The notes under the pieces are model-generated. The model was not told the origin of the DNA. It ran no database searches and saw nothing but the letters and a program-made list of their open reading frames with translations. Below are positions 10,129 through 56,651 of a DNA stretch of 64,000 nt, one piece after another. This DNA is from an uncultured Clostridia bacterium (lineage in GTDB: Bacteria > Bacillota_I > Bacilli_A > RF39 > UBA660). Made by a program: the position numbers and the translations under genes. The stretch lies in NCBI GenBank assembly GCA_947165135.1, contig CAMUZE010000003.1, positions 26,370 through 90,369 of the forward strand, given 5' to 3'. The number at the start of each line of letters is the position of its first letter. The stretch's first letter is position 1.

Positions 10129-10497
10129 ATGGAAAAGAAAAATATTAGAAAGGCAATAATGACAACTGCTTTAATTGGAGGACTTGCCTTTGCAACACTC
10201 GGATGTAGCTGTAATTATGATATGGTAGATTTTAAATATAATTTTAATAAAGCAATTATATTTAATGGTAATACGGCTACAATAGTTGAAATTGAAAAGT
10301 GGACTGATTATGATGGCGAACAACTTCAAATAGTTACAAAAGATGGAGCAATAATTATAACATCATCTTTTGATACAAAATTAATTAATGATATAAATTC
10401 CACAGTAAAAGCAGATGATATTGCTAGATCAATCTTAGGAGAAGATGCTGAAATTAATTATTTAGGTCAAGGAAAGCAATTAACTCTAACTCCTTAA
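10129..10497 (+). CDS. Small lipoprotein, 122 aa (first of a paralogous pair)
   Basis: Signal peptide with lipobox ATLGC (followed by SC). The mature part is a domain of about 90 residues containing KAIIFNGNTATIVEIE and DDIARSILGEDAEINYL. The next gene shares the same pattern, so the two are tandem duplicates. It follows the candidate Mn2+ riboswitch and has an AGAAAGGAG ribosome site. Function unknown; the riboswitch hints at a metal-linked envelope role, which is inference. Confidence 0.85.
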   Translation: MEKKNIRKAIMTTALIGGLAFATLGCSCNYDMVDFKYNFNKAIIFNGNTATIVEIEKWTDYDGEQLQIVTKDGAIIITSSFDTKLINDINSTVKADDIARSILGEDAEINYLGQGKQLTLTP

Positions 10498-10556
10498 ATT
10501 GACAAAATATACCAAATATAATACTTACAATTATTTAAAAGAGAGGTGAATATAAT

Positions 10557-10910
10557 ATGAATAATATTAAAAGAAGAAAAGCTATAATGGCAGCTGCTTT
10601 AAGCGGAATGCTTGCTGTTACATCTTTAACAGGATGCGGCAATAATAAACCTAATTATAAAGCAATTATTTTTGAAAATAATAGAGCAACAATAATTGAA
10701 ATTAATCGATATAATTATTCTACAGGAGGTTCTGTGATTTTGTACTTACCAAGCGAAGAAATAATTGTTACTTCGACAATTAATACTAGAATTATTACTG
10801 AAAGAGGTTCTATTACTGCAGAAGATATAGCAAAAAGTATAGCAGGAGATGATATAGTAATTAACTATTTAAATAGTGATGATCAACTATTACTTAAAAA
10901 AGGTAATTAA
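10557..10910 (+). CDS. Small lipoprotein, 117 aa (second of the pair)
   Basis: Paralogue of the preceding lipoprotein: lipobox LTGC, then KAIIFENNRATIIEIN and AEDIAKSIAGDDIVINYL in the same order. The start has a GAGAGGTGA site. It lies 59 bases after its partner with no terminator between, so the two are probably co-transcribed under the same leader. Confidence 0.85.
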   Translation: MNNIKRRKAIMAAALSGMLAVTSLTGCGNNKPNYKAIIFENNRATIIEINRYNYSTGGSVILYLPSEEIIVTSTINTRIITERGSITAEDIAKSIAGDDIVINYLNSDDQLLLKKGN

Positions 10911-12241: not shown

Positions 12242-12276
12242 ACTTCCCCTACCTTATTAAATTGGAAGTAGGGGTC
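12242..12276. terminator. Hairpin after the ZIP transporter gene
   Basis: CCCCTAC/GTAGGGG arms, with an alternative ACTTCC/GGAAGT register, lie just past the transporter stop. There is no strong T-run, so terminator function is moderate at best. Confidence 0.45.
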
Positions 12277-13019
12277 TATAATATAAATGATAGTATAAAA
12301 AATAACACTACCCCTACTATATATCCAATATAGCTATAATTAATTAAATTATATTTTTTTATTTCTTTGTAAATTTCATTAATGCTTAGTGAAATCATTA
12401 ATCCTGATACAAATATTAATATAAATGAAATCATAATATTACTTATATAATTTTTAAGGAATATATATGAAAGTAGTGCACCTATGGGTTCAGCAATACC
12501 TGAAATAAAAGTATATTTTAAAGAAAGTCCCCTACTTCGGCCACTATAATAGAGTGGGACTGCAATTGAAATCCCTTCTGGAATATTATGTAGTATTATT
12601 GCTAGAAATAATTTATACCCTACTCTTATATTTACATAACTACTCATAAATACTGCTATACCTTCTGGAAAATTATGCAGCATTAAAGATATCATGCTTA
12701 ATATTCCGATTTTATATAATGAAGACTTATATTTAATTCTATTTGTTATAAGATATATTGTTAAATAGCCTAATATAAAAGTTAAAATAATTAATAATAT
12801 TCCAAAATATTTACCATAATAACTAATCATATTTATTGATGAATTTGGTAATAAATCAAATATTGAAATAAGTACCATTATTGAAATTGAAAAAGATAAT
12901 GAAATCACAATAAACTTATTAATATTTTTTATTTTAATAAAAATAAATAGTCCTCCAATAAGAGTACTTAATCCTGCAATTAAAGATAATAATAAAGGAC
13001 CAAATATTTCCATTTTCAT
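12276..13019 (-). CDS. ZIP-family divalent metal transporter
   Basis: Imports Zn2+/Fe2+/Mn2+ across the membrane. It has about eight membrane segments and both family signatures: HNFPEGIAVF (TM4) and HNIPEGISIAVP (TM5), whose His/Asn/Glu residues line the metal site. An AEPIGALL motif follows in TM6. The length of 247 aa is typical of the GufA/ZupT branch. The substrate cannot be fixed. It is a separate minus-strand unit, not obviously linked to the riboswitch 2 kb away. Confidence 0.92.
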   Translation of the reverse strand: MKMEIFGPLLLSLIAGLSTLIGGLFIFIKIKNINKFIVISLSFSISIMVLISIFDLLPNSSINMISYYGKYFGILLIILTFILGYLTIYLITNRIKYKSSLYKIGILSMISLMLHNFPEGIAVFMSSYVNIRVGYKLFLAIILHNIPEGISIAVPLYYSGRSRGLSLKYTFISGIAEPIGALLSYIFLKNYISNIMISFILIFVSGLMISLSINEIYKEIKKYNLINYSYIGYIVGVVLFFILSFIL

Positions 13020-13080
13020 ATTAAAATATTATACATTTTAAAAATATTTATAACCATAATAATACTAGGTGGTGATAAAA

Positions 13081-13197
13081 TTGGCAAACGCTAGAAATAA
13101 TTCTAGATGTAAATCTAATGCTAGATCAAAATCTAGAAGTAATAGTAATGCAAGAAGCAATTCTAGAGCAAAAATGTCAAATTCTAGAAGTCGCTAA
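13081..13197 (+). CDS. Arg/Ser/Asn-rich microprotein, 38 aa
   Basis: Below the ORF-track size limit. It has a TTG start 8 bases after GGTGGTGA and is followed by a terminator. The product (starting MANARNNSRCKSNARSKSRS) is almost only Asn, Ala, Arg, Ser and Lys, with repeated N-x-R/S-R units, one Cys and a strongly positive charge. This suggests binding to nucleic acid or another polyanion, but no family is recognised. The start codon and its ribosome site support translation; composition alone would not. Confidence 0.6.
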   Translation: MANARNNSRCKSNARSKSRSNSNARSNSRAKMSNSRSR

Positions 13198-13205
13198 TTG
13201 TAAAG

Positions 13206-13234
13206 AAAAGATATTTCTAATGAATATCTTTTTT
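13206..13234 (+). terminator. Terminator after the microprotein gene
   Basis: AAAGATATT and AATATCTTT arms followed by TTTT, nine bases past the stop codon. Its presence supports a discrete small transcript. Confidence 0.75.
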
Positions 13235-13263
13235 AATTATGTTATAATTTATTTGGTGAAAAT

Positions 13264-14601
13264 ATGACAAGATACGTAAAAAAAAGAAGATTAAAAAGAT
13301 GGGTAAGAAAATTCTTAAGAAGATCTTTCTTATTATTTATAACTGTATTAACATTATTTATTATATATAAAATTGAATATAAAAAAGTATCAATTAAAGA
13401 TATATATTTAGAAAATAATAAATTATTTGTTAAATTTAATTCTAAAATAAATAAAGATATTATTTGTGCACTATCTAAAGAAGAAAATGATTCATCAGTA
13501 AAAGACACTGAATGGATTAAAATCAAAGATAAAGAATGTGTATTTGATTTTAATGATGATAACTATAATTTATTTATTAAAAAAAATGATAAACTTATAT
13601 ATTCTTCAAATGATAGTAAAGTATTAGATTTTGAATTTGATGATACAACTAAATATTATGCAGTAAATAATGAATATAATTTAAAATATAAATATAAATA
13701 TATTGGAAAAAATCCAAAAATTACATGGAAAAGTTCAAATGATAAAGTTGTTACTGTTGATGCTGGAACAATAAAAACAATTAGTGATGGTGAAGTATCA
13801 ATATTTGCAAATTTCGAAGGTAAATCTAAAACATTAGATATTACCTCTACTTCATTAATTGTTGCTAAGCCTAAAGAATATGATTTAAAGAAAAAATACT
13901 TACCATGTGATAAATATACAGAAGAAGAAAATGATAAATTAGATGAAATATTAGATTATAGAGTACATCAAGTTGGTTTTCAAACTAGAGCCTCAGCAGC
14001 TGAAGCAGCAAGATTCTTAACTTTAGAATTACCATATAGAATAAATTATTTCTATGAAACTGGAAGACTTACTCAAGCAAATAAAATAGATGGTGAAGGA
14101 AGATATTATCATGTTGGCTTATATTTAAATTCATCTAGATATAAAAGTATAAGTAAATCTACTTCTAAACCAAAGACTTGGGGATGTTCAATGTATGACA
14201 CACCTGTTCACAGGAATGTAGATAATGGGCTTGATTGTAGTGGATTCGTTTCGTGGGCTTTATTAAATGCAGGATTTGATGTTGGAGATTTAGGTGCTGG
14301 AGTAAGTAATGTTAAAAATCTATCTCAAAGTTTAGGCGAATTTAAGGATAGTTCTGTATCGTTAGCTAAGAAACTTAAAGTCGGTGATTTACTATTCAGT
14401 TATAAAGCCGGAGGACACATAGGTATATTAGTTGGTATAGATGATAATTATTTCTATACAGCTCAAGCGTTATGGACAGGACAAATTGGTGTTATTATCA
14501 CAAAAGCAACGGCAAGTGAACTAGCAAAAGAATTTCCTAAATTTGTACTTATGGATAAATTCTATAAAGAAGACGGAGAACTTACAAATATGTGGTACTA
14601 A
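13264..14601 (+). CDS. Membrane-anchored NlpC/P60 peptidoglycan endopeptidase with Ig-like domain
   Basis: Probably cleaves peptide cross-links in the cell wall. It has a basic N-terminus, one membrane helix (about residues 19-38), a BIG_2-like Ig fold (about 130-195; ITWKSSNDKVVTVDAG), and a C-terminal NlpC/P60 domain. The catalytic Cys is in LDCSGFVSW (about 323) and the His in GGHIGILVG (about 384). The YRINYFYETGR region before the domain probably belongs to its substrate cleft. 445 aa. A TATAAT box about 15 bases upstream overlaps the preceding terminator. Confidence 0.88.
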   Translation: MTRYVKKRRLKRWVRKFLRRSFLLFITVLTLFIIYKIEYKKVSIKDIYLENNKLFVKFNSKINKDIICALSKEENDSSVKDTEWIKIKDKECVFDFNDDNYNLFIKKNDKLIYSSNDSKVLDFEFDDTTKYYAVNNEYNLKYKYKYIGKNPKITWKSSNDKVVTVDAGTIKTISDGEVSIFANFEGKSKTLDITSTSLIVAKPKEYDLKKKYLPCDKYTEEENDKLDEILDYRVHQVGFQTRASAAEAARFLTLELPYRINYFYETGRLTQANKIDGEGRYYHVGLYLNSSRYKSISKSTSKPKTWGCSMYDTPVHRNVDNGLDCSGFVSWALLNAGFDVGDLGAGVSNVKNLSQSLGEFKDSSVSLAKKLKVGDLLFSYKAGGHIGILVGIDDNYFYTAQALWTGQIGVIITKATASELAKEFPKFVLMDKFYKEDGELTNMWY

Positions 14602-24765: not shown

Positions 24766-24792
24766 ATAAAAAACTAGTTTTCACTAGTTTTA
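24766..24792 (-). terminator. Terminator of the pilin-LRR gene
   Basis: AAAACTAGT-GAAA-ACTAGTTTT followed by TTATTG on the minus strand, overlapping the stop codon. Confidence 0.8.
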
Positions 24793-26394
24793 ATTTGAAC
24801 CTTCCCAAGTAATACATCCATTAGTAACATTGCTTGTATTATCTTTAACGCATGTTACACCAGATGCCCATTCCCAACCAGGAGTATATGTAGTAAATTC
24901 ACTTGATGATGATTTTCCTTGAATGGTTACGGATGTTAATTGATTATTTGAAAAAGAATTCATTATAATTATAACATTACTTGGTATTGTTACGGATGTT
25001 AATTGATTATTTTGAAATGCACTATTTAATATTGAGATTACATTATTTGATATTGTTATGGTTTTTAATTTATTATTAGAAAAGGCATTATCTCTTATAT
25101 ATTTAACAGTATTTGGCAATATAACAGAAGTTAATTGATTATCAGAAAAGGCATATCTTTCTATGGATGTAATACCACTTGGTATTGTTATGGACGTTAA
25201 TTGATTATTTCGAAATGAATGTTCACCTATTGAAGTGACACTACCTGGTATTGTTACGGATAATAATTGATTATTATAAAAGGCATGTTTTCCGATTGTT
25301 GTAACACTATTTGGAATCACAGGATTTTTATTTACTCCACCATAACTTACTATAGTTGTATTATCAATTCCACTAGATGTTCTTTTATATATAAACGATT
25401 GATTATCAGGCAATTGATTGTTATTAAACGCTGATGCACCTATTGATGTAACACTATTTGGTATTGTAATGGAAGTTAATTTGTTAGCATAAAATGCACT
25501 TGCTCCTATTGAAATGACACTATCTGGTATTGTTAATGATGTTAACAGATTACTCTCAAATGCATGATCTCTTATATATTTAACACTATTTGGTATTGTG
25601 ACTGATGTTAATTTGTTACTTGCAAATGCAGAAATTCCTATTGATGTGACACTATTTGATAATGTTACAGATGATAATTGATTAATTGAAAAAGCTCGTT
25701 CCCCTATTGATGTGACACTATTTGGAATTATTACTGATGTTAATTGATTGCTCGGAAATGCATAACTTTCTATTGTTATAATACTATTTGGAATTATTAC
25801 TGATGTTAATTGATTACTTTCAAAAGCTCTGTAACCTATTGATGTAACTGGTTTCCCTTCAATTGTTGATGGTATAATTACATCTCTAGTGCAACTATTA
25901 TAATCAGTAATTTTAACTTCATCATTTGATATTGTATAAGTAAAACATGATACATCAGTTGGTTCGGCAGAAGTGTCAGTAAGTGATATTACAAGTATAT
26001 TATTAGTATCTAATTCACTTATTGTTTCTACATCTTCTACTTTTGCATTATCAATTGTTCCTTCTTTATTATATTGGTAAGTACCATTTGTTACTTGTAT
26101 TTTTGTAATTACTCCATTACTGTCAGTCACTATTTTATATTTTAAATTTTTTCCACCAGTTATCTTTAACGCTTTAGGACTCCCTGTTATATTAGAATAT
26201 GTTTGAGAAGTACCACCATCAAATAAATACTGCTGTCTAGTAGTTCCTATTAAATTATTTACTTCATTTACAAATGAATTTCTTCTTGCATCATTATACA
26301 TTTTTAATACATTTGGAAGTGCTATTATAACTAGTATTGCTAAAATTGCTATTACTGCTAGTAATTCTACTAATGTAAAGCCAAGTTTTTTCAT
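24790..26394 (-). CDS. Type IV pilin-signal protein with BspA-like leucine-rich repeats, 534 aa
   Basis: An unusual fusion. The N-terminus is a classical prepilin signal, MKKLG|FTLVELLAVIAILAI, to be cleaved after Gly by prepilin peptidase, plus the N-terminal alpha-helix of a pseudopilin (to about residue 60). After a linker, about 330 residues consist of about 23-residue LRR_5/BspA-type repeats (core LTSVTIPNSVTSIGxxAF). The C-terminus carries two Cys. It is likely displayed at the cell surface, either in a pilus or retained in the membrane; adhesion is inference. Ribosome site AGGTGAT. Confidence 0.85.
   Translation of the reverse strand: MKKLGFTLVELLAVIAILAILVIIALPNVLKMYNDARRNSFVNEVNNLIGTTRQQYLFDGGTSQTYSNITGSPKALKITGGKNLKYKIVTDSNGVITKIQVTNGTYQYNKEGTIDNAKVEDVETISELDTNNILVISLTDTSAEPTDVSCFTYTISNDEVKITDYNSCTRDVIIPSTIEGKPVTSIGYRAFESNQLTSVIIPNSIITIESYAFPSNQLTSVIIPNSVTSIGERAFSINQLSSVTLSNSVTSIGISAFASNKLTSVTIPNSVKYIRDHAFESNLLTSLTIPDSVISIGASAFYANKLTSITIPNSVTSIGASAFNNNQLPDNQSFIYKRTSSGIDNTTIVSYGGVNKNPVIPNSVTTIGKHAFYNNQLLSVTIPGSVTSIGEHSFRNNQLTSITIPSGITSIERYAFSDNQLTSVILPNTVKYIRDNAFSNNKLKTITISNNVISILNSAFQNNQLTSVTIPSNVIIIMNSFSNNQLTSVTIQGKSSSSEFTTYTPGWEWASGVTCVKDNTSNVTNGCITWEGSN
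24950..25850 (-). repeat. Tandem ~69-bp LRR-coding repeats
   Basis: Repeated blocks encode N-(K/Q)-L-T-S-V-T-I-P-x-S-V-x-S-I-G-x-x-A-F. Around a dozen copies are visible, some degenerate. Internal homology makes copy-number change likely. Confidence 0.8.
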
Positions 26395-35932: not shown

Positions 35933-37234
35933 ATGTTAAAACAAATAAAAGATAACTTATTTATTAAATCTACACTAATATTATTATTTGGTGGAGTTTT
36001 AGGAAAATTAGTTGGTTTTATATTAAGAATTATAATTACAAGATATCTAGGTACAGAAGGAATGGGACTTTTAAGTTTACTATCCCCTACTGTTTCTCTT
36101 CTAACAGTAATTGCTACTTTTTCATATCCAACTTCAATTTCAAAAGTAATATCTGAAAGAAGTACAACTCCAAAATCAATAATCATTTCTTTAATACCAT
36201 TATCATTACTTATGAGTCTACTTATTATTTTAATTGTTATTCTTTTTGCACCTATTTTATCTACATATTTACTTAAAAATTCAACTTTATATTTTCCCTT
36301 AATATGTATTTCAATAACAGTTCCATTTATAAGTGTATCTTCAATTATAAAAGGATATTTTTGGGGAAGACAAAATATGTTTCCATATATGATGTCAAAT
36401 TTTATTGAACAAATAGCTAGGCTTATATTAATAACATTATTTATAAATAAATTTTTACAAATGGGTATAATCCAAACAATATGTTTTATTATTTTAGTAA
36501 ATGCAGTTGGAGAAGTAATATCTCAACTTGTAATGATATATTATTTTCCAAAAAATAGTATAAAATTTGATAATTTAAATATTAATAAAAATGACATAAG
36601 AAAAGTAATGGATATAAGCGTTCCAGCAACATCAAGTAAAATAATTGGATCAATTTCATATTTTTTAGAACCAATAATACTTACAAATATTTTATTATAT
36701 GTTGGATATACAAAAGAATATATAGTTTATGAATATGGAATAATTAATGCATATGCTTTATCACTACTTTTAATGCCTCAGTTTTTTACTCAAAACATGG
36801 CTTCATCTTTAGTCCCAGAATTATCTAAGTATTATAGTCAAAATAATAAAGATATGTGTAAAAAAAGAATAAAACAAATAGTTTTATTCTCTTCAGTTAT
36901 TGGAGGAATTTCAACTTTAATAATAACAATATTTCCAAATTTCTTTTTAAATATTTTATATCATACTAATGAGGGAATAGATTATATAAGATTATTAAGT
37001 CCATTTGCCATACTTTTTTATATAGAGTATCCTTTAATAAATGCTCTTCAAGCACTAGGAAAAAGCAAGTCAGCCATGAAATGTACAATTATTACTTCAA
37101 TAGTAAGATTAATATCTATAGTGGTATTTTCTTTATTAAAATTTGGAATGTATAGTTTAGTTATATCAATTATAATTAATTTAGTATTATCAACATATAT
37201 GTATTATAGAGAAATTAAAAAAACATTATCTTAA
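35933..37234 (+). CDS. spoVB: MOP-superfamily lipid flippase, SpoVB-like
   Basis: 433 aa with 12 or so membrane segments. It opens STLILLFGGVLGKLVGFILR, ITRYLGTEGMGLLSLL, the pattern of the SpoVB/MurJ-like polysaccharide and lipid II flippase family. In spore-formers SpoVB acts in cortex synthesis, but many non-spore-formers keep such proteins for wall precursors. The block spoVB-like / DUF421 / yrzE-like / tgt / queA matches the B. subtilis order. No strong ribosome site is seen. Confidence 0.85.
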   Translation: MLKQIKDNLFIKSTLILLFGGVLGKLVGFILRIIITRYLGTEGMGLLSLLSPTVSLLTVIATFSYPTSISKVISERSTTPKSIIISLIPLSLLMSLLIILIVILFAPILSTYLLKNSTLYFPLICISITVPFISVSSIIKGYFWGRQNMFPYMMSNFIEQIARLILITLFINKFLQMGIIQTICFIILVNAVGEVISQLVMIYYFPKNSIKFDNLNINKNDIRKVMDISVPATSSKIIGSISYFLEPIILTNILLYVGYTKEYIVYEYGIINAYALSLLLMPQFFTQNMASSLVPELSKYYSQNNKDMCKKRIKQIVLFSSVIGGISTLIITIFPNFFLNILYHTNEGIDYIRLLSPFAILFYIEYPLINALQALGKSKSAMKCTIITSIVRLISIVVFSLLKFGMYSLVISIIINLVLSTYMYYREIKKTLS

Positions 37235-37876
37235 TATTTCATTTCTTTTAATTACATATATCTTACTATTTTTATAAAACGCATAAAAAACTTCATTGAT
37301 ATCTAATTTATTTTTATCCAAATAATCATTTAACCATTTTTCATCTTTTTCTATATATTCCAATGTATCTTTTTGAATAACACCATCTAATATTAAAGGA
37401 AAAGGATTAGTTGTTCTAGAAACAATAAAATCATACTTAAATATATTTAATTTACCACTATTTTCTAATATAGCATATTCTACATCTTTTAAATTTTTAA
37501 TACCATTATTTCTAAGTTCTAATAATAAATCATCTAAATTATATCTTTGTTTTAACATTTCTTTATAATTAATAATTCCTTTATTTATTATTAAAGATGG
37601 TTTACCATCCATTAAATTTCTAAATTTATTAAACTTTAATGATAAAAATCCTACAGATAATTCAAAAAATAAAAGTATTATTATAGGAATAACTGTAAGT
37701 AACATAGAATCTTTATAATTTTCAATACTTATTGCTACTAATTCCGCAATTAAAAGACTAACTACTAAATCTTGTATAGATAATTGACCTACTTCTCTTT
37801 TACCCATAATTCTAAATATTATTAGTACAAATATATAAAAGAAAACTGTTCTTAAAATAACTAATATTAAATCCAT
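37226..37876 (-). CDS. DUF421 membrane protein (YetF/YrbG-like)
   Basis: 216 aa with three N-terminal membrane segments (RIMGKREVGQLSIQDLVVSLL is the family hallmark) and a cytoplasmic C-terminal domain (PSLIINKGIINYKEMLKQRYN). The function is unknown in general; paralogues are linked to spore or cell-surface processes. Its place beside SpoVB- and YrzE-like genes matches B. subtilis yrbG. It overlaps the spoVB-like gene end by 9 bases in convergent orientation. Confidence 0.88.
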   Translation of the reverse strand: MDLILVILRTVFFYIFVLIIFRIMGKREVGQLSIQDLVVSLLIAELVAISIENYKDSMLLTVIPIIILLFFELSVGFLSLKFNKFRNLMDGKPSLIINKGIINYKEMLKQRYNLDDLLLELRNNGIKNLKDVEYAILENSGKLNIFKYDFIVSRTTNPFPLILDGVIQKDTLEYIEKDEKWLNDYLDKNKLDINEVFYAFYKNSKIYVIKRNEILR

Positions 37877-40537: not shown

Positions 40538-40563
40538 AAAAAAAGAGTTTTTAAAACTCTTTT
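40538..40563 (-). terminator. Terminator of the Cys-rich pilin gene
   Basis: AAAAGAGTTTT/AAAACTCTTTT arms followed by TTTA on the minus strand. A TATAAT box for queA follows directly. Confidence 0.8.
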
Positions 40564-41269
40564 AATATAACTCATGAGATGGAGGCGTAATTGGAGTGAT
40601 TGGTTTAATTGATCCACAGAAAGTACACATAGTTGCGCCTTCGTCACTACAAAAATTAACACCACATGGTGTACATGCTTGATTACCAGATACTGTTTTA
40701 TACGTATTAGCAGGACATGGCATACATTTACTAGTTCCACTATCTTCAACTAAATATTTACCTGGTTCACATCCTAAATCAGTTTCACTACCAGATTCAT
40801 ATCTTTCGTATGCTTCTTCTTCAACTTCTAAGATATTAATTATATCCACATCTTCAAGTTCTGAAATTCTGTCTAAATAATCAAGTTCATTTATATCTAA
40901 TTTACTTCCAAATAAACTAACAAATGCTGTTTGGAAAGTACCATCAGTAACATAAAAATTTAATACCTCACCTGAAGTATTAAATTCAATAAAGTAATCT
41001 ATATTCTCTCTTCCACTTAATGAAAGTTGAGTACTTTGACATCCATCACATCTAGCATAAAATATTTCTGCATCACCATTTGTCATTGAATCTAATAGCC
41101 ATTGTTGTAAAGCTGTCTTATAAATATTTTTTGCTTCATTAATAAAACTTGCTTCTTTAGCATCATTATATGTTTTAATAATATTTGGTAGTGCAATAAT
41201 TACTAATATTGCTAGTATTGCTATTACGGCTAATAATTCTACTAGTGTAAATCCCTTTTTATTTTTCAT
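40562..41269 (-). CDS. Type IV pilin-signal protein with Cys-rich C-terminal domain, 235 aa
   Basis: Prepilin signal MKNKKG|FTLVELLAVIAILAI plus the hydrophobic helix and pseudopilin N-domain. The last ~75 residues form a Cys-rich repeat resembling GCC2/GCC3 or TNFR-like modules (CEPGKYLVED, CMPCPANTYKT, ACTPCGVNFC, CTFCG). It then ends in a short Ser/Pro tail. The pilin part would be processed by prepilin peptidase; the Cys-rich part may bind a ligand. It shares almost identical first 25 residues with the LRR pilin at 24790-26394. Confidence 0.85.
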   Translation of the reverse strand: MKNKKGFTLVELLAVIAILAILVIIALPNIIKTYNDAKEASFINEAKNIYKTALQQWLLDSMTNGDAEIFYARCDGCQSTQLSLSGRENIDYFIEFNTSGEVLNFYVTDGTFQTAFVSLFGSKLDINELDYLDRISELEDVDIINILEVEEEAYERYESGSETDLGCEPGKYLVEDSGTSKCMPCPANTYKTVSGNQACTPCGVNFCSDEGATMCTFCGSIKPITPITPPSHELY

Positions 41270-50827: not shown

Positions 50828-51967
50828 CTACGCTCCTTTTGATAGTAAATTATGTAACCAAACTGATGGTAATCCTAAATATTTAATTTTATATTCTACT
50901 CTTCCTACTATATCATCTTTGACAACTACCCAACTATCTTCAGCATTGTCTTTATAATCACCTTTTGTTCTGATATAGTAATTATTATTTTTTTCAAGAA
51001 TACTTATTATTCTATGGGTATAAAGGGTATTCTTAACTTTAAACACTAGTACATCACCAACAACAAGTTCAGAAGGATTATCAGCATACCATTTATCTAT
51101 CACAACTATGTCACCGACTTCAATTGTAGGAGACATACTTCCAGATGCAATAGTCGCAACCCAATATCTAAACAAGTTACTGTAAATGCATACTAAGAAA
51201 ATTAAGAATAATACGCATAGAGTAATAAATATTTTAGAACCAATATGTTTATCTCTTGAATCTTTTCTCTCTCTTTTTCTAAAGTAAAAATTAATAAATT
51301 GCATATTAAATAATGGCATTAATATATTCATAATAGATGTTAAATATTCATCATAATTAGGTGTTATAGGAACAATATATTCATATATGCCCAATATCAA
51401 TGTATATACTAATGTAACAGCATATCCATAATTTTTACTATAAATACTCATTACTACATTTTTACTTATACTTGGAATTACAATTAAACAAACAAACTCC
51501 AATAGTACAAAATTATCAACAAAGTCATAAAAACTCATTGAATACATGATATCAATTAATACAAGTACAACAACAGATAAAATTATATTTATCAAATTCT
51601 TTTCACTACAAAATTGATATCTTAATAATTCCATCGGTACAATAATAAGAACTACAGGAATAATGTTCATTAACATACCGAAGATGTTTTTAGTATATGG
51701 AGACCTTACAAATCCACCAATAAAACCAATAGCATATGTTAAGAATAATATAGCTATTGTTATTACAGCAACAGTTATAATTATTTTTTTATTCTTAGCT
51801 ATCTTGTCCTTTTTAAATCCAATTAAGTATATTGACGCACCAAAACCTGCAAATAAAATTAAGCTTAATAAATATTCATTAATTTTAATGCCAAATATAA
51901 TGCATAAAGAAGCAAAAAGGATAAATATTATCTCTAAAAACAATATTTTCTTAGCATTACCCTTCAC
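50828..51967 (-). CDS. sipW: SipW-type signal peptidase I with membrane N-domain
   Basis: The C-terminal ~110 residues form an ER-type (Ser-His) signal peptidase I: catalytic Ser in SGSMSPTIEVGD (about residue 277) and His in THRIISI (about 318), with RTKGDYKDNAED. The N-terminal ~250 residues have about seven membrane segments, unlike the single helix of normal SipW. GTG start at 51967 after GGAGGA. Predicted to cleave the signals of the three TasA-like proteins immediately upstream. Confidence 0.85.
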   Translation of the reverse strand: MKGNAKKILFLEIIFILFASLCIIFGIKINEYLLSLILFAGFGASIYLIGFKKDKIAKNKKIIITVAVITIAILFLTYAIGFIGGFVRSPYTKNIFGMLMNIIPVVLIIVPMELLRYQFCSEKNLINIILSVVVLVLIDIMYSMSFYDFVDNFVLLEFVCLIVIPSISKNVVMSIYSKNYGYAVTLVYTLILGIYEYIVPITPNYDEYLTSIMNILMPLFNMQFINFYFRKRERKDSRDKHIGSKIFITLCVLFLIFLVCIYSNLFRYWVATIASGSMSPTIEVGDIVVIDKWYADNPSELVVGDVLVFKVKNTLYTHRIISILEKNNNYYIRTKGDYKDNAEDSWVVVKDDIVGRVEYKIKYLGLPSVWLHNLLSKGA

Positions 51968-51979
51968 TTTTTATCCTCC

Positions 51980-52588
51980 TTATCCCATTTGTACTTGCTC
52001 ATATAAAATTACAGCTTCAATATTTGTTATAAGTACATCATTTTTAGGAAGTTCAGATGCATTAATATTATTAGAATAAATCAATGACATCTTTAATTTT
52101 TTATTATTATCTCCTAAAATTTTATCATTTGATGAATATAAAATATCTCCTGGAATTATTTCTTTTCCATCATCATAAGTCAAAGCATATCTGACATGCT
52201 TTAATACATTTCTGCAATCACTGTCAGACCCAATACATGTAGGATTAGTAACTTGAATAGAACTAACCATTGCATTAAATGTTCCTTTATTTTCAACATC
52301 AAATGTATATGATATTGAGTCTCCAGGTGCATAAAATGTTGTTTCAAAATTTGCTATTGTAGTAGCAGATTTTATATATGGAGAACCTTCAGGTTTTGCA
52401 TTACCAGAAATGTTAGGATCGGAAATATTATCAAATACAATTTCCCATTTTTCTCGAGAACCATCTTCTGAATCAGAAAACTGTATATCCAATGTATGAG
52501 TTAATGAAGCATACGCAAAAGAAATGGCAACAATAGATACCATTAAGCATAACATGCCAAACACTCTTACATCTCTAGACCTTTCCAT
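51980..52588 (-). CDS. TasA/camelysin-like secreted protein 3
   Basis: Signal peptide MERSRDVRVFGMLCLMVSIV with likely AYA cleavage, then a beta-rich domain with APGDSISYTFDVENKGTFNA, the hallmark stretch of the TasA/camelysin-like family. 202 aa, a divergent paralogue of the next two genes. It lies 13 bases before sipW. Expected to be an extracellular, possibly fibre-forming protein. Confidence 0.78.
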   Translation of the reverse strand: MERSRDVRVFGMLCLMVSIVAISFAYASLTHTLDIQFSDSEDGSREKWEIVFDNISDPNISGNAKPEGSPYIKSATTIANFETTFYAPGDSISYTFDVENKGTFNAMVSSIQVTNPTCIGSDSDCRNVLKHVRYALTYDDGKEIIPGDILYSSNDKILGDNNKKLKMSLIYSNNINASELPKNDVLITNIEAVILYEQVQMG

Positions 52589-52615
52589 TTTATCTATTCT
52601 CCAATTTAATAATTA

Positions 52616-53221
52616 TTATAATACTGCTGTACCTTCTTGAGTATATGTAAGTGTAATACCAAGGCCACTAACATTTACATCGGCAGTTGGTAATTGTGCA
52701 GCTGTTGTTGTATCTTTATAAGTTAAAACAATTTTTAAATGTCTAACTCCTGTTTTAGCAGCAAGAACAGCATTATCTGCAGCAGTTAATTCAGTATTAG
52801 ATGTTGTATCATATAATTTATATGTTAAATTATTACATACAACACTTGCTTCACTAGTTTTTGTACTTGAACAACTAGGTGTACCTATTGTAAGACCTGT
52901 TAATTTGGCAGCAAAGTTACCAGCATTAACAACATCAAAAGTATAAGATACACTATCGCCAGGTGAAGCTAATTGCACTACATAATCGCCAATACTTGTT
53001 GCACCACTTTTAATTGTAGGTGCTGTGATTTCACTTCCAGTTCCAGTAGTAACTGCAGTACCTAAATTTGCAAAATGTACATCCCATTTAACAGTTTTAA
53101 CAGTACCACTACCATTAATAGTTAATGTTTGAGTAAATCCTGCATATGCAAGAGATACAGCTACTAATGACACAACTAATGCTAAAATACCAAATACTAT
53201 ATAATTTTTAGATTTTTCCAT
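52616..53221 (-). CDS. TasA/camelysin-like secreted protein 2
   Basis: Signal peptide with GILALVVSLVAVSLAYAG, where cleavage after AYA is probable, then a ~170-residue beta-rich domain with SPGDSVSYTFDVVNAGNFAAK. Close paralogue of gene 1. Two Cys may form a bridge. A strong hairpin separates it from gene 1, so its expression may be lower. Confidence 0.82.
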   Translation of the reverse strand: MEKSKNYIVFGILALVVSLVAVSLAYAGFTQTLTINGSGTVKTVKWDVHFANLGTAVTTGTGSEITAPTIKSGATSIGDYVVQLASPGDSVSYTFDVVNAGNFAAKLTGLTIGTPSCSSTKTSEASVVCNNLTYKLYDTTSNTELTAADNAVLAAKTGVRHLKIVLTYKDTTTAAQLPTADVNVSGLGITLTYTQEGTAVL

Positions 53222-53261
53222 TTTTATCGCCTTTCTAAAGTATAATTAATAATTGATTATA

Positions 53262-53292
53262 ACGGTATACTCCCATAAAGGGAGCATACCGT
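53262..53292 (-). terminator. Strong intercistronic hairpin (partial terminator or processing site)
   Basis: ACGGTATaCTCCC/GGGAGcATACCGT, 12 pairs with one mismatch and a 5-base loop, but with a poor T-run. Lies between fibre genes 1 and 2. Confidence 0.6.
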
Positions 53293-53336
53293 ATTATATT
53301 CAAAAATCAATTTATTTTCAGATAACTAACTTAATA

Positions 53337-53927
53337 CTATGGTTGAACATAGTTACCATCTTGAGAATAAGTAAATTGTACACCCAATCCACCGATTGTT
53401 ACATCAGATCCTGGAAGAACTGTACTATCTGCTTTATAAGTTAATGTTAAAACATAAGTTTGAGTTCCAGTATAAGCATCTAATATTGAGTTATCAGCAG
53501 CAGTTATTGCAGTAGAACTTCCTTTTTTAGTTAATGTATAAGTGATTTGATTACATAAGAAGTTTGTATCACCACTACATGTTGGAGTTCCAACAGTAAG
53601 ACCAGTTAACTTAGCATTAAATGATCCAGTATTAACTACATCAAATTCAAAACTTGCAGATTGTCCTGGAGTATTGAATGTTACATTGTAATCACCAATT
53701 TGAGTTGTATTTGATTGAATTACTGGTTCAGTTACCCAACTAGCACCTGTAGATACGCTCTTATTTGTAAGATTAGCAAAATGTACATCCCAACTAGCAG
53801 TTTTAATAGTAGCAGTACCATTGATATTTAGTGTTTGAGTAAATCCTGCGTATGCAAGAGATACAGCAACTAATGATACAACTAATGCAAGTACTCCAAA
53901 TACTACATAATTTCTTGATTTTTCCAT
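53337..53927 (-). CDS. TasA/camelysin-like secreted protein 1
   Basis: First gene of the fibre operon. Signal peptide MEKSRNYVVFGVLALVVSLV...AYAG with the SipW-type cleavage area, then the family domain (TPGQSASFEFDVVNTGSFNAK). 196 aa. It has its own consensus promoter, 5' UTR with a hairpin, and a GGGAGA ribosome site, so it is probably the most abundant of the three. Major-subunit role is inference. Confidence 0.84.
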   Translation of the reverse strand: MEKSRNYVVFGVLALVVSLVAVSLAYAGFTQTLNINGTATIKTASWDVHFANLTNKSVSTGASWVTEPVIQSNTTQIGDYNVTFNTPGQSASFEFDVVNTGSFNAKLTGLTVGTPTCSGDTNFLCNQITYTLTKKGSSTAITAADNSILDAYTGTQTYVLTLTYKADSTVLPGSDVTIGGLGVQFTYSQDGNYVQP

Positions 53928-54055: not shown

Positions 54056-54820
54056 TCACAAAATTTCATTAGATAATTGCATAATATTTATGAAATTATT
54101 TATATATAAAATTGATAAAGCACCTATAATTAAAAATGGACCAAATGGTATAATTCCGTCTTTATTTTTTCTTATATAGAATAATGAGAATAATAATCCA
54201 GTAATAGATGCTATAAATAATGCAAAAAATGAGTTATACATTCCTATAGCAAGAGCAATAACCGCCATTAATTTAATATCTCCATCGCCTAAAGATTCTT
54301 TCTTAAATACCATATTTCCAATTAATTTAATTATATACATAAATCCAAACATAACAGCAGCAGACAATATGTACTTAAATGCATCTGTTTTTAAAAATGT
54401 AAACTGAAATATTATTAATAATATAGTACTAATTACAATTACTCTATCGGATATATAATAATATAAGAAATCACTAACTATTGTAACTATTAACACACAA
54501 GTAAGAATGGTAGATATATAAAACTTTAATGTAAATCCAAATACTAAATAATTTATTACAAACAGAACAGCAGATAATAATTCAGTTAAAAAATATATTG
54601 AATTTATCTTTTTATGACAATAAGCACATTTTCCTTTTAAAAAAGTATATGAAAGAAGCGGTATATTCATATACCATTTTAATTCTTTCTTACAATTTTC
54701 ACAGTAACTATTAGGATAAGTAGTTTTTATTTTATTTGGAATTCTATACCCCATACATCCTAAAAAACTTCCTATAATAGATCCTAATATAAACAATATA
54801 ATATAAATAAGTATTTCCAT
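54056..54820 (-). CDS. Prepilin peptidase/methylase (PilD family)
   Basis: Cleaves the leader of prepilins and N-methylates the new N-terminus. 254 aa, several membrane segments, a Zn-binding CxxC...CxxC loop (YCENCKK, CAYCHKK), and the two catalytic Asp in IVSDFLYYYISD and GDGDIKLM. The ATG at 54820 follows GGGGGAAA, while the ORF-track start at 54874 would run into gspF, so 54820 is chosen. Substrates include the LRR and Cys-rich pilins of this window. Confidence 0.92.
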   Translation of the reverse strand: MEILIYIILFILGSIIGSFLGCMGYRIPNKIKTTYPNSYCENCKKELKWYMNIPLLSYTFLKGKCAYCHKKINSIYFLTELLSAVLFVINYLVFGFTLKFYISTILTCVLIVTIVSDFLYYYISDRVIVISTILLIIFQFTFLKTDAFKYILSAAVMFGFMYIIKLIGNMVFKKESLGDGDIKLMAVIALAIGMYNSFFALFIASITGLLFSLFYIRKNKDGIIPFGPFLIIGALSILYINNFINIMQLSNEIL

Positions 54821-54836
54821 TTTTCCCCCTATACAT

Positions 54837-56651
54837 CTATTTAATTGTTTGATAAATTCCAAACATTGGAACAACTATAGCAACAAGTATAAATCCAACA
54901 ATAACTGCTAAGAAAACAATCATAATTGGTTCAATAAAGGTTTTAATTTGATTAACGCTATTTCTTTCTAGTTTATGATAATAGTCTCCAACTTTATCAA
55001 GCATCTCAGCAAGTTCTCCTGTTGATTCACCTGTCAATATCATATAATAAGCAACTTCTGGTACTGCCCAATGATCTTTAAAAGATACACTCATTTTTTC
55101 ACCTTTAAGTAAATTGTTAATTGTTTTAAGCATTATTGCTTTATATATTTCATTACTAGTAATTTTAGCAAGAATATCTATACTATCAGTTAACAAAACA
55201 TTATTCTTATTTAAAGTAGCAAAAGTTCTTGCAAATAATGCCATTTCTTTAGAAATAATTAAATTTCCAACAACAGGTAATTTCATAAATAATGTTTGAT
55301 TTAACGTTCTAAATAATTTAATTTTCTTATATGCAAGAATATATAGAGAAATAACAAGAACAATAAATCCAATAATATTCATATATTTTGTTTTAATATA
55401 TGCTGAAATATTCAGTGTAATTTGTGTAACAGGATTCAATTCTGCCTGCATAGATTCATATACACCTACAAATTGAGGAACTATATATACAAGCATAAAT
55501 ACTACAATACCTATTGCAAATATTAATACTATTGATGGATATGTAAGTGCACTTATAATTGCCTTTTTAGTATCTTCTATTTCTTGATAATAATTACTCA
55601 TTTCATCAAGAGTATCCTCAATATTACCTATCATTTCAGCTGATTTAATCATATTAACAAGTAATGCTGGAAAAGAGTTTCCTTGTTTTTTTAATGCTTC
55701 ACTAAATGGTTCTCCCATTGTAAGTTCATATATAATTGAATCATATATACCTTTATATTTTCTTCTTTTATCTTGCTTTGCTAAAACTTTGACAGCATCT
55801 GTAAGAGGAATACCACTTCTAACATAAGTGGATATTTGAGCAAGCCAGAATATTAAATCTTTATTCTTCATTCTTCTCTTAATACTAGATGATTCAGTAT
55901 GAAAGAAATTAATTGCCCAAGATGTATTTATTTCATATACTGTCATACCTTTATCAATCAAATATGAATAAACATCTAATTTAGATTGAGCAGCAAAATA
56001 TCCCTCTTCTAATACACCGTCTTTATTCCTAGCTATATATTTATATGTCTTCTTTTCATTTGTTTTAACAACATCATCACTATTAGGATCTATTGACATA
56101 ACTTTAAGACTTGCTTCTTTTTTGGCTTGGGCTGCTTTAACAGATGGAATCTCATTATATTTTTTATTAATATATTCTCTTACTGTTTGAGTAAATGTTT
56201 TACCACTTTCTTGCTCTGCAGCACTTTTCTTTTTAATCTTATTTATTGATTCTTTGGTTTTATAATATGTACTAATGATTGGTTTGCTAAATTTTCTATA
56301 TAAATAGGTTGGAAAACCTATAAATAATAATTCCAAAACGTATGCAGTTCCATTATAAAATGCTTTAAATAATTCATATATCTCTATAAAAGGTCTTCTA
56401 AAAAGAATTTTATATATTGCTTTAAAAACTAAAAAGATATAAGAAAAAAAAGATAAAATAAAAGAAAAGAAAAAATCAAATACTTTAAATAATGGATTAC
56501 TAGATTTCTTAGTAGTTACATTTTCACTAGCCTCTACTGCTTTTGCCTGCTTTGCAGTAGGAGAACTAGTATTATTAGTTACATTAACCGTATTTGTCTT
56601 TTCAGTCTTATTTTGTTTTTCTACTTCTAATGCTGCACTTTTTTGACCCAT
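54837..56651 (-). CDS. Type IV pilus/type II secretion inner-membrane protein GspF/PilC with long N-extension
   Basis: 604 aa. The C-terminal ~380 residues form the GspF domain twice (LAQISTYVRSGIPLTDAVKVLA; LFARTFATLNKNNVLLTDSID) with three membrane helices. Before it lie about 220 extra residues: a Lys/Thr/Asn-rich start, a hydrophobic segment (about 55-110), and a RKYKYIARNKDGVLEEGYF-like segment seen before PilC domains. No PilB/PilT ATPase, PilM/N/O or secretin is in this window, so the partner motor must lie elsewhere. Confidence 0.88.
   Translation of the reverse strand: MGQKSAALEVEKQNKTEKTNTVNVTNNTSSPTAKQAKAVEASENVTTKKSSNPLFKVFDFFFSFILSFFSYIFLVFKAIYKILFRRPFIEIYELFKAFYNGTAYVLELLFIGFPTYLYRKFSKPIISTYYKTKESINKIKKKSAAEQESGKTFTQTVREYINKKYNEIPSVKAAQAKKEASLKVMSIDPNSDDVVKTNEKKTYKYIARNKDGVLEEGYFAAQSKLDVYSYLIDKGMTVYEINTSWAINFFHTESSSIKRRMKNKDLIFWLAQISTYVRSGIPLTDAVKVLAKQDKRRKYKGIYDSIIYELTMGEPFSEALKKQGNSFPALLVNMIKSAEMIGNIEDTLDEMSNYYQEIEDTKKAIISALTYPSIVLIFAIGIVVFMLVYIVPQFVGVYESMQAELNPVTQITLNISAYIKTKYMNIIGFIVLVISLYILAYKKIKLFRTLNQTLFMKLPVVGNLIISKEMALFARTFATLNKNNVLLTDSIDILAKITSNEIYKAIMLKTINNLLKGEKMSVSFKDHWAVPEVAYYMILTGESTGELAEMLDKVGDYYHKLERNSVNQIKTFIEPIMIVFLAVIVGFILVAIVVPMFGIYQTIK

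Follow-up and report, generated by a model that had tools for sequence, protein, structure and literature searches.

Gene organization of the locus

The window analyzed here is a stretch of 64,000 bp from contig CAMUZE010000003.1 of an uncultured Clostridia bacterium (GTDB lineage RF39; UBA660). An ORF of the window, running from TTG to TAA, encodes a 38-residue microprotein, M ANARNNSRCKSNARSKSRSNSNARSNSRAKMSNSRSR. The ORF and the features around it are as follows.

12276..13019, minus strand: divergent zupT-like ZIP transporter gene, syntenic with the microprotein gene in most genera
13033..13037, plus strand: putative -35 element ACATT (G[ACT]AT[TG] in other genera), first base off consensus in the window genome
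13055..13061, plus strand: putative -10 element CATAATA of the sigma-G type, conserved, with an exact 17-bp spacing to the -35 element
13067..13075, plus strand: ribosome binding site (RBS) AGGTGGTGA, 5 bases 5' of the start codon, conserved within and outside the genus as RGGTGGTGAT
13081..13197, plus strand: CDS of the Asn/Ser/Arg/Ala/Lys microprotein, supported by homologues in at least 11 genera, pN/pS and alignment of the start
13204..13235, plus strand: AT-rich hairpin resembling an intrinsic terminator and followed by a T-run
13264..14601, plus strand: neighboring gene with an NlpC/P60 domain, genus-specific and probably not functionally tied

The first-pass annotation of this DNA had described a 38-residue ORF with a TTG start, a good ribosome site and a terminator, and these details were confirmed. 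The hairpin (z = -2.7) lies just downstream of the ORF and similar hairpins were found 3' of the gene in homologues. According to the same annotation the ORF was missed by the ORF track because of its length. The ORF list offers a 42-aa version with a GTG start, and that GTG overlaps the RBS. Of 36 homologues, 32 have an ATG aligned with the TTG, which is thus the conserved start and taken as the true one.

The product had been noted as consisting almost only of N, A, R, S and K, and these account for 29 of 30 consecutive residues. The maximum elsewhere in the window was 21 of 30, and 20 of 30 was the highest value in 60 first-order Markov resamples of the window. The composition of the ORF is far beyond chance. 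A product this tiny, repetitive and positively charged would be missed by automatic gene finders, and ordinary annotation does not see the gene.

Homologues and selection

A first protein search with the 38-mer gave matches that were only partly above noise, which is to be expected of 38 low-complexity residues. In the loci found in this way frame and start were the same, and a conspicuous box, CATAATANTANNRGGTGGTGAT, lay upstream. With one mismatch allowed, the box was present once each in 14 of 18 congeneric genomes, every time followed by the microprotein ORF. It had no other occurrence in 40 relatives, and a reversed control pattern had no match. The exact -10/RBS box gave 23 matches in 84,980 species genomes, of which 22 were followed by a microprotein of the same type. 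A motif match in Ca. Aphodocola (L075) was rejected, since the 120-aa protein behind it is unrelated.

A profile of 22 members led to further genera in which the box differs slightly (CATAATAATAGTGGGAGGTAAG, CATACTATTTGTAGGAGGTAAT). Altogether 36 distinct proteins of 31 to 61 residues were collected. The family of uncultured gut Bacilli to which they belong is probably RF39, and at least 11 of its genera have homologues. A weak match in another genome (G041, L010) was antisense within a long coding ORF and was taken as chance. With a pattern based on composition only, DTG(DVN)x30 with one mismatch, the number of matches in each of 309 genomes ran from several to more than 200, and the pattern was of no use. 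No Pfam or NCBIfam model matched any of 22 members at E ≤ 0.1, and the 38-mer of the window had no match in Pfam.

At most loci the gene adjoins zupT and/or xerD, and the keeping of this place argues for one origin of the family. The downstream neighbor is an NlpC/P60 protein in most genomes of the window's genus and deoB or xerD in other genera. A general partnership with NlpC/P60 was rejected, as this neighbor is genus-specific.

The pN/pS ratio was 0.19 to 0.40 in all six comparable homologue pairs, and the other reading frames contained stops in 12 to 36 of the 36 homologues. The frame is therefore under purifying selection. The first-pass annotation had named the lack of same-frame homologues or of a translation signal as refuting; neither outcome occurred, and frame, RBS and purifying selection were all found. 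The DNA itself is of low complexity, and the composition of the window copy leaves a second frame open, as would be expected of a DNA or RNA element in which the ORF is incidental. The pN/pS values speak against such an element, and so does the fact that 36 homologues keep start and frame although the intervening sequence drifts and varies in length. No Rfam match was found at 12,900 to 13,400 with E up to 1, and an RNA element was rejected. An incidental ORF is scarcely credible, and it is virtually certain that the microprotein gene is real.

Composition of the protein family

Across the 36 members the composition is N 28%, S 24%, R 17%, A 15% and K 8%, with four aliphatic or aromatic residues in 1,593. 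Arg and Lys follow one another at a spacing of four residues in 64.7% of cases compared to 24% in shuffled sequences (z = 20), and the periodicity is also visible at 8 and 12. The repeat unit is roughly X-N-[AS]-[RK]. Net charge ranges from +7 to +13 and charge density from +0.2 to +0.3 per residue. A single Cys, the position of which varies, is present in 26 of the 36 members, and the C-terminal residue is K or R in 33. The sequence drifts fast across members while composition and spacing are kept. The version of one congener (G009; L056 / L014) is an almost perfect RSNNSS hexapeptide repeat with no Cys, indicating that the family tolerates rewriting of the sequence if composition and regular Arg spacing stay. 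The earlier description of the product as basic and protamine-like has held up well, being conserved in homologues and in agreement with both composition and charge. The microprotein is probably a disordered, basic protein of the spore core.

No signal peptide or hydrophobic segment was found in the family. This argues against a secreted peptide, or a peptide binding the cell wall or surface and working with the NlpC/P60 neighbor, a role suggested by that gene being the next one in most genomes of the genus. The neighbor differs in other genera (deoB, xerD) and the promoter is of a forespore type, so that such a function is very unlikely.

Promoter

The sigma-G consensus used as a yardstick was GHATR-17/18-CATWMTA. 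Measured back from the start codon, most genera have G[ACT]AT[TG], 17 bp and CATAATA (or CATACTA) with the RBS right behind. A large part of the genus of the window has ACATT at the -35 place. In the family's alpha/beta SASP genes the sequence is GTATG-17-CATTCTA, and 21 to 25 bp separate the -10 element from the start. One true SASP gene of the family (L125, G301) has the leader AATAATAATACAAGGTGGTGAT-ATT-ATG, which is nearly the same as the microprotein leader. Clostridial and Bacillus sigma-G promoters are alike and all SASP genes are sigma-G dependent (PMC3789822).

The promoter of the window genome scored 10 out of 12, a value reached by about one third of shuffles and not above chance alone, and the case rests on conservation across genera. 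In the spo0A, sigG and spoVA neighborhoods of the genus no second CATAATA/RBS box was found, and spoVAC of the genus has at best a weak version of it. Judged by its sequence, the upstream box is built like a forespore sigma-G promoter. Predicted control of the microprotein gene by sigma-G is strongly supported by this likeness and by the exact co-occurrence with sigma-G described below, and expression in the forespore is very probable.

The -10/RBS box is also carried by DUF421/YetF genes of the family. DUF421/YetF proteins are a spore inner-membrane family (PMC10126465). The window has one such gene at 37226..37876 (minus strand), with CATAATAATATTAGGTGATATA directly 5' of its start, and this is probably a second forespore gene with the same promoter type. 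At two loci of another genus (g62; L110 and L111 in G081 and G214), CATAATATTACTAGGTGGTAAT precedes a 63-aa protein (MSRISSMYKTRNFIYKD...), possibly another small forespore protein.

Co-occurrence with sporulation genes

Sporulation has been predicted for Bacilli of the RF39 type, and Erysipelotrichales have next to none of the Bacillus reference SASPs (PMC10868615). The genomes compared here are mostly metagenome-assembled and incomplete, and all co-occurrence p-values are nominal as related genomes are not independent. Spore sigma-G (E < 1e-80) was detected in 14 of the 18 congeneric genomes, and these were exactly the 14 microprotein carriers (Fisher p = 3e-4). Spo0A was present in 16 of 18 and SpoVAC in 14 of 18; three of the four non-carriers were without SpoVAC. 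Neither alpha/beta SASPs (PF00269) nor the SASP-degrading protease GPR (PF03418) were found in any of the 18 congeneric genomes. SASPs of PF00269 were present in most other examined genera with sigma-G.

The analysis was extended to a family sample of 309 genomes from 150 genera, with SASP in 180 genomes and GPR in 219. It includes 22 carriers, identified by box or profile. SASP was found in 0/22 carriers compared to 180/287 other genomes (nominal p = 1e-9) and, by genus, in 0/11 carrier genera compared to 96/139 others (nominal p = 6e-6). A GPR with E < 1e-45 was likewise found in none of the 22 carriers (nominal p = 6e-10), the gene being absent or very diverged in all of them. The microprotein gene and the SASP/GPR pair are mutually exclusive in this sample. 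A strongly diverged GPR (E 1e-22 to 1e-39) was present in 34 genomes, carrier genera included, and all 34 were without SASP (nominal p = 7e-15). The one diverged GPR that was read, on the complement strand of a genome that is not a known carrier (G029; L216, C22), has lost its terminal parts and keeps the Asp in the GDSLGP, IDSL and TDTG motifs, which are likely to be catalytic. This is compatible with a possible re-targeted protease.

Many SASP-less genomes of the family had no microprotein match in searches that are limited for such short sequences. This would mean a lack of sensitivity, or else that some SASP-less sporulators do without the gene. Of the SASP genes that were read, nearly all adjoin a ThiI-like gene and none was beside zupT/xerD. 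The SASP locus was considered as the birthplace of the microprotein gene and rejected, as the gene is not a positional descendant of it.

Comparison with known proteins

The microprotein resembles several known proteins in the way it is expected to work and is a member of neither the SASPs nor the protamines. Like the alpha/beta SASPs (SspA/SspB family) it is very small, has a sigma-G-type promoter with the same 17-bp spacing, and would be expected in the spore core on DNA, and the two exclude each other across the family. Unlike them it is of low complexity, has no sequence similarity to them, no PF00269 domain and no SASP-like GPR cleavage site, and lies beside zupT/xerD instead of thiI.

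Animal sperm protamines are short, Arg-rich, low-complexity proteins with 50 to 70% Arg+Lys that condense DNA in a dormant cell. Shared with them are the short length, low complexity, Arg richness, occasional Cys, and a fast-drifting sequence with conserved composition. The microprotein differs in its bacterial origin, its Asn richness, its Arg+Lys content of about 25% (Arg 17%), a charge density far below theirs and the lack of homology. Arg does not reach the half or more of residues by which protamines are recognized. The Chlamydia proteins HctA and HctB are Lys/Ala-rich, histone H1-like, basic and disordered, are made late and condense the chromosome of the dormant form. They are comparable in being basic and disordered, with a late, condensing role in a dormant form that for the microprotein is a proposed one. 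They differ in being longer, rich in Lys and Ala, without homology to the microprotein and not spore proteins.

Gamma-type SASP (SspE) and the minor SASPs (SspN, SspO, Tlp and others) are also small, N-rich, forespore-expressed and narrowly distributed. Their models match 0/22 members, and the microprotein differs in the strict 4-residue spacing of Arg and Lys. A storage protein of this kind, serving as a forespore amino-acid reserve that is degraded in outgrowth and has no DNA role, would fit the forespore-type promoter, the low complexity and the Asn/Ser richness equally well. A reserve has no need for exact Arg/Lys spacing or for a constant net charge. The mutual exclusion concerns the DNA-binding alpha/beta type, and the genus lacks the SASP-digesting protease. 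This role is considered unlikely.

No protamine-like spore protein of a bacterium turned up in the literature collection that was searched. SASPs are described as sigma-G dependent and DNA-binding (PMC3533761, PMC3789822). SASP-less genomes are on record in one of these, with no replacement proposed in the part consulted (PMC3533761).

Proposed role

The microprotein is probably a forespore-expressed, protamine-like protein that replaces the alpha/beta SASPs as spore chromatin protein or DNA coat, as judged from gene sequence and distribution. The first-pass annotation had named DNA, RNA or the cell wall as possible targets. DNA is the best supported of the three, on account of the sigma-G-type promoter and the mutual exclusion with DNA-binding alpha/beta SASPs. 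Binding to DNA is inferred from the comb of charges and from this exclusion. The earlier interpretation is thus partly supported; the link to sporulation, the promoter and the loss of SASP and GPR had not been seen in it.

Basic disordered segments rich in N, S and R also bind RNA, and the promoter type tells only the compartment. The protein could then bind RNA or ribosomes in the forespore, or act as a packing or glass-forming factor of the dry core, and not be primarily a DNA coat. The exclusion with alpha/beta SASPs points instead to a DNA role, and no link to RNA genes was seen at the locus. These functions are improbable, a little more so than a storage role.

For the protamine-like DNA coat the following sequence of events is proposed. 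Sigma-G in the engulfed forespore would transcribe the gene from GHATN-17-CATAATA with a very short leader; the form of this promoter is given by its sequence and its likeness to SASP promoters, and its activity is presumed. The strong RBS would then yield large amounts of a protein whose length, net charge and placing of Arg/Lys at every fourth residue can be read from the genes. The Arg/Lys comb would attach to the phosphate backbone largely regardless of sequence and protect DNA as protamines and SASPs do. In place of the lost alpha/beta SASPs, the microprotein would thereby coat and neutralize the spore chromosome. The single Cys of most members might, speculatively, give disulfide dimers as in mammalian protamines. 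A GPR cleavage site of the SASP type is missing from the microprotein, and its removal at germination would therefore need another protease or a re-targeted GPR; GPR is lost in the genus and strongly diverged in several other carrier genera.

On a broader view, it is reasonably likely that a lineage of endospore-forming gut Bacilli swapped alpha/beta SASPs for an unrelated, disordered, protamine-like protein and re-tooled or dropped GPR. This would be the bacterial analogue of the switch from histones to protamines. Living genera would show its intermediate stages, first SASP loss with a diverged GPR and then loss of GPR too.

Textbooks explain the resistance of spore DNA to UV and heat by alpha/beta SASPs, and these have served as a genomic marker for spore-forming bacteria. 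A replacement not homologous to them, if true, would explain DNA protection in SASP-less sporulators and correct predictions of which uncultured gut bacteria make durable spores. With 31 to 61 residues it would be a minimal system for asking whether Arg spacing alone is enough for DNA protection or a defined fold is required. It would also make it testable whether the spore photoproduct forms only with the SASP fold or whether a DNA coat in a dry core is sufficient.

Other features of the window

Two tandem paralogous small lipoprotein-like genes are located at 10129..10910 (plus strand) and are also present in the nearest relative. Three regions on the minus strand (24790..26394, 40562..41269 and 54056..56651) together hold pilin-like N-termini (GFTLVELLAVIAILAILVIIALPN), one of them joined to a leucine-rich BspA-like repeat region, and prepilin-peptidase-like and GspF-like genes. 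Recognized by eye, these suggest a type IV pilus-like system in a member of the Bacilli with a small genome. Three tandem TasA/CalY-like proteins, also identified by eye, are encoded at 50828..53927 (minus strand) and adjoin a signal-peptidase-like gene.
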